Of a stretch of DNA of 33,651 bases, positions 1 to 25,988 are shown piece after piece. This DNA is from Verrucomicrobiia bacterium (GTDB lineage Bacteria > Verrucomicrobiota > Verrucomicrobiia > Limisphaerales > DASXHY01): NCBI GenBank assembly GCA_035629175.1, contig DASPIL010000074.1, positions 1 through 33,651 on the forward strand, written 5' to 3'. The notes under the pieces were generated by a model. It was not told the DNA's origin, did no database searches, and worked only from the letters and a program-made list of their open reading frames with translations. Both the position numbers and the translations under genes were made by a program. Position 1 is the first letter of the stretch, and the number at the start of each line of letters is the position of its first letter.

Positions 1-108
1 TTGCTCTCCACGGTTCATTTCTGAACCGCAGTTACCTTCAGTCTCTGGCGGGAAGCGCCGCCAGACAGGGACTCTCACCCTGCGATGTGCGTTGTATCCC
101 AAGCGCAC
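1..108 (-). ncRNA. 5' end of a probable class C group II intron (truncated by window edge)
   Basis: Read on the minus strand from 108 leftwards, the sequence starts GTGCGC, the usual 5' boundary of bacterial group II introns. A first hairpin pairs GTGCG with CGCAC. It is followed by the hallmark GGGTGAGAGTCCC hairpin of domain I, a CTGGCGG/CCGCCAG hairpin, then CTGAAGGTAACTGCGG. This order resembles domain I of class C introns such as that of Oceanobacillus iheyensis, from memory rather than by alignment. The 5' exon is a perfect stem-loop (112-132) ending three bases before the intron, which is how class C introns choose targets. The maturase gene and domains II-VI would lie left of the window, so whether the intron is complete or a remnant cannot be seen. 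Confidence 0.68.
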
Positions 109-110
109 TA

Positions 111-273
111 GCGTCAGGCATCTTGCCTGACGTAGAGGGCGGGCATCCTTGCCCCCCGGAAAACCGTTAAGCACGAGGAACGCTCAAATGCTCTCCCTGC
201 GCTCGGATCTGGTTAAGGTTCCTTCCTCCGGCCTGGAAGCCCGGTTCCACGGCAGGGAAGGATGCCTGCCGCC
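111..273 (+). repeat. Dispersed palindromic element, copy 1
   Basis: About 163 bp, present again in inverted orientation at 25743-25906. The first 31 bases (111-141) are identical between copies, the 13-mer CGTTAAGCACGAG is shared at the same internal position, and the right part (about 217-273) is shared with scattered changes. The left end is a perfect hairpin, CGTCAGGCA-TCT-TGCCTGACG. The motif GGCATCCTTGCC near the left end recurs as a near inverted copy near the right end (GGCAGGGAAGGATGCC), so the element has imperfect inverted termini like a miniature non-autonomous element. No protein is encoded. The group II intron end abuts its left side. Confidence 0.8.
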
Positions 274-375
274 ACCCGGGGGAAGTGGACCGGACTCTTG
301 GGCAGTTTAACGCGGCAACCCGGCGTTCCGGGAACTTTTATTGAAAGATTTCCGCTCCTGCTCCGTATAAGTGGA

Positions 376-4151: not shown

Positions 4152-4886
4152 TCACCTCAAGCCGAGCACATCCTGCATGTCGTAGAGCCCGGGTTTTTGC
4201 GTCACCAGCCACTGCGCGGCCCGCAGCGCGCCATTGGCAAACGTCTCGCGGCTCGACGCCTTGTGCGTCAACTCCACGCGCTCGCCATTCGCCGCCAAGA
4301 TCACAGTATGATCGCCCACGACGTCTCCCCCGCGAATCGCGTGGATGCCGATTTCCGAGTTCGTTCGTTCGCCTGTAATTCCTTTGCGTCCATGACGCAG
4401 CGCATCTGCAAGCTGGAGTTTTCGCACGTCACCCAGGATTTCCAGCAGCGTCGTGGCAGTGCCGCTCGGTGCATCCTTCTTCAGCCGATGATGCATTTCG
4501 ACCACTTCCAGATCGAACGACGGTCCAAGGATCTCCGCGGCCTTGCGCGTCAGCCAGAACAGCGTGTTCACTCCCGTTGAGAAATTCGTCGCCATGACGA
4601 TGGGGATCTGGGACTTCAGCGCCGTGATCTCAGATTTTTCTTCAGGCTTGTGACCCGTTGTGCCAATCACGACCGCTTTGCGATTTTCGGCGCAGACGCG
4701 GGCGATCGGCAGCGTGGCGCTATGAAAACTGAAGTCAATGACGACATCGGCTTTCGAGATCACCGCCCGAAGATCGTCTCCCTGATCAACGGCGCCTACG
4801 ACTTCGATGCCAGGAAAGCGCGGCGCGCAACCCAGCAATGCCTGGCCCATGCGGCCTTTTGAACCTGCGATGATGACTTTGGTCAT
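4152..4886 (-). CDS. dapB: 4-hydroxy-tetrahydrodipicolinate reductase
   Basis: 244 residues. The N-terminal Rossmann motif VIIAGSKGRMGQAL binds NAD(P)H. The catalytic stretch EVVEMHHRLKKDAPSGTA contains the general acid His pair (H132/H133) and substrate lysine (K137). Slightly shorter than the E. coli enzyme (273), which is common outside proteobacteria. It carries out the second step of the diaminopimelate branch, reducing the DapA product towards lysine and peptidoglycan. It follows dapA on the same strand with a 42-base gap, so the two pathway steps are likely co-transcribed. The ATG at 4886 fits the family start. Confidence 0.96.
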   Translation of the reverse strand: MTKVIIAGSKGRMGQALLGCAPRFPGIEVVGAVDQGDDLRAVISKADVVIDFSFHSATLPIARVCAENRKAVVIGTTGHKPEEKSEITALKSQIPIVMATNFSTGVNTLFWLTRKAAEILGPSFDLEVVEMHHRLKKDAPSGTATTLLEILGDVRKLQLADALRHGRKGITGERTNSEIGIHAIRGGDVVGDHTVILAANGERVELTHKASSRETFANGALRAAQWLVTQKPGLYDMQDVLGLR

Positions 4887-25697: not shown

Positions 25698-25742
25698 TCC
25701 CCGAGCGCGCCGCGCGCGCACAACTCAGGACAGGGCGCCGTA

Positions 25743-25906
25743 GCGGCTGGCATCCTTGCCTGCTGTGGAAGCGGGCTTCTAGCCCGGTGGAAGGAACCTC
25801 AAACGGAGGCGAGCGCGTTGAGAGGGTCTGAGTGTCTCTCGTGCTTAACGATTTCTTCCGGGCGGCGAGGATGCACGCCCTCTACGTCAGGCAAGATGCC
25901 TGACGC
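25743..25906 (-). repeat. Dispersed palindromic element, copy 2 (no intron)
   Basis: An inverted copy of the element at 111-273, 164 bp. Bases 25876-25906 match 111-141 perfectly; CTCGTGCTTAACG at 25838-25850 is the counterpart of 165-177; the GGAAGCGGGCTTC region near 25767 matches the other half with a few changes. The perfect hairpin CGTCAGGCA-AGA-TGCCTGACG (25885-25905) is preserved, and the flank after it (CCACCC) lacks the intron boundary seen at copy 1. It lies between the purA promoter and the PHP gene, which is why a start for the latter at 25818 is not credible. Confidence 0.8.
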
Positions 25907-25988
25907 CACCCTCACCTCCGTTACGCTTCGCATAGCGACCATGGCGAATTACATCGACTCGCTTGCGATGCATTTGGAAACTCAGGCC

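Follow-up and report, generated by a model that had tools for sequence, protein, structure and literature searches.

Class C (group IIC) introns, among them those of B. halodurans, O. iheyensis and E. rectale and GsI-IIC, are the closest described systems to the intron reported here. In class C introns a stem-loop replaces IBS2 (PMC3898094, PMC10190682). Our intron has in common with them a reverse transcriptase-maturase that lacks the endonuclease domain, insertion 3' of a DNA stem-loop, an IBS1-EBS1 pairing that is short in the window's intron, with the stem-loop standing in for IBS2, and a compact domain I with an IB hairpin. Toro and Nisa-Martinez (2014) described a further variety, g6 (D.p.I1, Pe.th.I1, Al.or.I2, Na.th.I1 and Al.ma.I1), in which class C-like RNA goes with a protein outside monophyletic class C (PMC4244168). 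Structured, repeated DNA is also the target of the class C-attC introns of integrons, which use the attC bottom strand at a consensus TTGT/T (PMC7923331), whereas the sites described below are genomic repeat hairpins reading GCTA/C or ACTC/C. Dispersed palindromic repeats are likewise the targets of REP-targeting insertion sequences (Tobes and Pareja 2006, PMC1525189); as presented there, these elements use DNA transposases, while the one studied here is ribozyme-based. According to a table in the same paper, 2 of the 9 copies of a P. putida group II intron lie at REPs.

The stretch of DNA that we analysed (the window, 33,651 nt) begins at the left end of contig C74, which is part of a draft genome of 5.4 Mb. 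Its positions 1–108, read on the minus strand, are the first 108 nt of a 1868-nt group II intron, as seen from 100% identity to nine genomic 5' ends, one of which runs into a full intron; since the contig begins within the intron, domains V/VI and the maturase are not in the window. The window alone gave no Rfam match, and its first 700 bases, searched at E=10, gave a chance PhotoRC-I match only. On the minus strand, a perfect 9-bp stem-loop with the loop AGA (CGTCAGGCA-AGA-TGCCTGACG, 132..112) is followed by CTA (111..109) and then by GTGCGC (108..103), the first six nucleotides of the intron. The nine 5' flanks part company exactly before GTGCGC, which together with the IBS1-EBS1 pairing places the 5' splice site there, and the 3' flanks diverge after CCCTAT, with C as the first base in all. 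IBS1 is GCTA (112..109, minus strand), which pairs with EBS1 TAGC at intron nt 199–202 of the complete copy, an assignment based on EBS1-IBS1 covariation; the stem-loop, identified from its sequence and from the hairpin statistics given below, takes the place of IBS2. Further into the intron, the GGGTGAGAGTCCC hairpin (80..68, minus strand), an IB-like element of domain I, shows compensatory changes, with as many as 7 of the 17 relatives carrying them at a given pair. The initial annotation had pointed out GTGCGC, this hairpin and the stem-loop three bases before the intron, all with exact counts and coordinates, and what it saw is far beyond chance: these 104 nt are present in nine fully identical copies, one of them running on into a complete intron, and the IB hairpin carries compensatory changes.

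Contig C66 holds one complete copy of 1868 nt (GTGCGC...CCCTAT), and both the domains V/VI and the maturase that the initial annotation had proposed to look for further to the left are present in it. The GTGCGC start fits the group II GUGYG, domain I shows changes on both sides in 18 of 33 predicted pairs, and the 3' end, CCTACCCCTAT, has the branch A and the AY end. The intron encodes an intact 466-aa reverse transcriptase/maturase (TIGR04416, 368 bits) whose Pfam matches are RVT_1 and GIIM only. Searching the genome returned the 104-nt 5' end in nine copies, nearly all cut at contig ends, and the domain V/VI family RF00029 in ten copies at 53.7 bits (gathering score 40); these nine 5' ends and ten 3' ends are identical where compared. 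The assembly evidently broke at intron copies. A weaker domain V/VI match (31 bits) lies on the minus strand of contig C22 at 4760–4831, with a tail, CCTACTTTAC, unlike that of the window's intron, and no reverse transcriptase was recognised near it.

By its choice of target the intron behaves like class C: the insertion lies 3' of a stem-loop, without an IBS2, and the sequence upstream of IBS1 varies between copies. The term 'class C-like' used in the initial annotation therefore holds as a description of target choice; as a statement of class C membership it was not supported, and was rejected in three tests, by protein trees, Rfam D1–D4 models and the domain V triad. Class C forms a 100/100 clade in two trees, comprising E. 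rectale, GsI-IIC, three introns of integrons and the class C intron of the present genome, and the protein falls outside it, within a clade of its own (100/100). Nor does it fall among the references for class D, CL, g1 and class F/g3; those for class F (g3, from Nitrobacter hamburgensis) and for g1 (from Rhodococcus jostii) are plasmid introns taken from their hosts to be Ni.ha and Rh.js, and both are in other clades. The models D1D4-3 and D1D4-1 (RF02001 and RF01998) matched four class C references at 117–137 and 54–71 bits, respectively, and the gathering score was reached by 0 of 9 introns of this lineage. The domain V triad is AGC in the window's intron and in all other members displayed except L055, which has CGC, as against CGC in every class C reference displayed. 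The protein, moreover, has about 50 extra N-terminal residues before the class C start.

These observations bear on whether we are simply dealing with a plain class C intron, so that the known properties of class C would cover everything seen here. The target choice (hairpin, short IBS1, no conserved IBS2) is that of class C, the best solved relatives of the protein are group IIC maturases, the trees place class C among the named clades closest to it, and g6 offers a precedent for class C-like RNA with a protein outside class C. Given the position of the protein, its N-terminal extension, the domain V triad and the lack of D1–D4 matches, we consider this reading unlikely, and descent from within class C is not supported as far as tested. 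The intron belongs to a lineage near class C, which, going by the published description, may be g6 of Toro or a neighbour of it.

The same genome provides a direct comparison, as it has a class C intron of its own (contig C1, around 76765–78667, loci L263 and L019; RF01998 at 55 bits, domain V CGC). That intron stands directly after GGCGTCGGACTTCGGTCCGGCGCTTTTTTCTTT, a canonical terminator made up of a hairpin and a T tract, unlike the window's intron, whose repeat hairpins have no T tract. Outside the lineage, two Firmicutes introns with domain V AGC (L092:1671 and L066:1885) and one further intron (L204:898), none of them class C, start right behind strong hairpins or terminators, their 5' ends being guessed from GTGCG. 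Since AGC-triad introns of Firmicutes also appear to stand behind hairpins, stem-loop targeting is not unique to the lineage described here, and a sound statement on these sequences is that such targeting extends beyond the class C protein clade, with this lineage not its sole other user. After position 3797 of L066, two different group II introns lie back to back, a class C-like 5' region starting where the other intron ends.

In the aligned 5' parts of this intron and its relatives, a loop within the motif GRYGAG...CGAAGYCC is complementary, in all but a few introns, to the final 4–6 nt of the 5' exon, with loop/exon pairs such as TAGC/GCTA, GAGC/GCTC, GAGCGC/GCGCTC, GAGTGC/GCACTC, GACCGC/GCGGTC and TAGGTC/GACCTA. 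For 25 introns the mean run of pairs was 5.2 bp, compared with 2.84 ± 0.22 when exons were shuffled among introns (0 of 5000 shuffles), and in 16 held-out introns 5.4 of 6 positions paired, compared with 3.4 ± 0.27 (0 of 5000). Judged by this covariation, the pairing is that of EBS1 with IBS1, and it independently fixes the exon boundary. It comprises 4 bp in the window's intron and 5–6 bp in most relatives, the latter being another difference from class C. At the same time, some relatives have inserted at sites mismatched within IBS1. The segment before the coordination loop is variable: it is missing in L051, L057 and L062 and forms a variable stem in other members. IBS3 is usually C, and for its partner EBS3 no covarying position held up in a domain I column scan and the held-out introns; intron nt 197, which the scan put forward (23 of 27), was contradicted by the held-out introns L259, L261 and L244.

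The stem-loop before the intron belongs to a dispersed repeat of about 155 bp (111..275 in the window, with its end hairpin as the target), which has an inverted second copy in the window and 57 matches in the genome; these and the other genome-wide counts are from pattern searches. As claimed in the initial annotation, then, a group II intron sits behind the hairpin of a repeated element. Seven of the nine copies of the intron are at the end hairpin of this repeat. The two others (L030 and L032) are at hairpins of unrelated sequence, likewise followed by GCTA. Each of the nine 5' ends is preceded by a hairpin and then by CTA or CCA, the copy on C66 being at GCCA, a mismatch to EBS1. For comparison, the window has 85 GCYAC sites, of which only 8 come with a hairpin of this kind; nine out of nine is thus not a matter of chance (about 6e-10).

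The predicted abundance of landing sites was also borne out: the hairpin motif GATGCCTGMCGCYA has 64 copies in the genome and none for the reversed control, with 6 of the 64 (about 9%) occupied. Empty copies read hairpin-GCTA-C or hairpin-GCCA-C, with C next in 38 of the 39 that have context, which puts the insertion point at GCYA^C. At the other end of the element in the window, for example, a hairpin arm (261..274, plus strand), GATGCCTGCCGCCA followed by C, forms an unoccupied site. The second copy of the repeat (25740..25909, plus strand), which the initial annotation had taken for an empty site, is indeed empty when the copies are compared (...GATGCCTGACGCCA^C, insertion point between 25908 and 25909), but its last four bases are GCCA and not GCTA. 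Elsewhere the target repeat is arranged in tandem, its units spaced at close to 178 bp (contig C67, 244589–246107; C24; C77; C1, 130581–131320).

Close relatives of the intron, with proteins 46–71% identical, come from Verrucomicrobiota, Pseudomonadota, Planctomycetota and others. With their 5' ends placed by profile search, the median hairpin score at 39 junctions was 19, compared with 9.5 at random positions (p=1.4e-20), the introns being not fully independent, owing to shared ancestry among relatives, though their sites differ. In the 16 held-out introns, which were fetched afterwards and not used in setting up the hairpin test, the scores were 18 and 8.5 (p=4e-9), with a weak hairpin at one held-out site (L251); L184 and L169 also score low. 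The negative control, class F-like introns belonging to the same order, showed no strong hairpin at their starts. In G843 and G770 (L253, L255 and L257–L262), two intron types are present in several copies each, at different short hairpins, and at some of their IBS1 sites one internal position does not match EBS1, as though the hairpin outweighed perfect pairing; the repeat pattern of G843 is only about three-fold enriched over its control and is a minor argument. One intron of the lineage (L091:1892-5355) is about 1.5 kb longer than its kin, its reverse transcriptase split, apparently by an insertion.

Could the hairpin be incidental, the repeat being recognised by its sequence in the manner of an ordinary homing intron? 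Seven of nine copies at one repeat family, with IBS1 matched, would fit such an explanation, but against it stand the two copies of this intron whose hairpins are unrelated in sequence, the hairpins before introns in many other genomes, held-out ones included, and the stems themselves, whose sequence is free across relatives and varies even from copy to copy of a single intron (as in the four of G045, below), with the pairing mostly kept. We therefore regard an incidental hairpin as very improbable. Still less credible is a spread of the copies by the repeat carrying the intron along, for although the repeat is itself dispersed and in part tandemly arrayed, differences of 20–25% are common among the repeat copies adjacent to the intron, whose own copies are 100% identical over 104 nt, and two of these are at other hairpins.

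A second host, G045, from another family of the same order, has four copies of an intron with EBS1 GAGTGC, inserted at ACTC^C. Its landing repeat, different from that of the first host, reads AAAGCGCCGCTGGAAGTCGGCGCACTC^CAAACGC (AAAGCGSCGCTGGAAGNCGSCGCACTC^CAAACGC) at copies L171, L172 and L173, and the fourth copy, L184, is in a degenerate version, so that at least three of the four are in the hairpin repeat. The end motif was found 97 times in this genome, compared with 2 in the reversed control and 0–1 in two related genomes. The match between intron and host repeat is thus not peculiar to one genome, and EBS1 may have been tuned to the repeats of its host.

Taken together, the sequences make it very probable that this is a mobile group II intron which targets a stem-loop plus a short IBS1, and for which an abundant host repeat serves as landing pad. 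Under the same explanation, and with the same confidence, the intron has recently multiplied; that it is mobile, including at the present day, is suggested by the identity of its copies. The intron ribonucleoprotein would recognise a DNA stem-loop, presumably reading it as a structure, together with a short IBS1, of which 4–6 nt pair with EBS1, and in most cases a C at the start of the 3' exon, and would then reverse splice between IBS1 and that C, giving hairpin-GCTA^C as the site. As the protein encoded by the intron lacks an endonuclease domain, priming of the second strand would presumably come from the replication fork, where the hairpin would be single-stranded. As the hairpin with GCYA and C is the end of an abundant dispersed repeat, the repeat would act as the landing pad.

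A broader reading, for which we see the balance as roughly even, is that the intron represents a separate and widespread non-class-C lineage (domain V AGC), guided by stem-loops and with EBS1 matched to the repeats of its own host, for which the repeats may be safe landing pads and EBS1 may be retuned from repeat to repeat. A well-supported lineage that is outside class C by protein and domain V, and that has the same form of target, indicates that this mode of recognition occurs more widely, and may provide a second system for studying how a ribonucleoprotein reads DNA shape. Copies of the intron would also explain assembly breaks in such genomes. Finally, the repeat-hairpin sites are natural replicates, with one intron, several stems, one IBS1 and dozens of empty sites per genome, and so whether the stem is read by shape or by sequence becomes testable.
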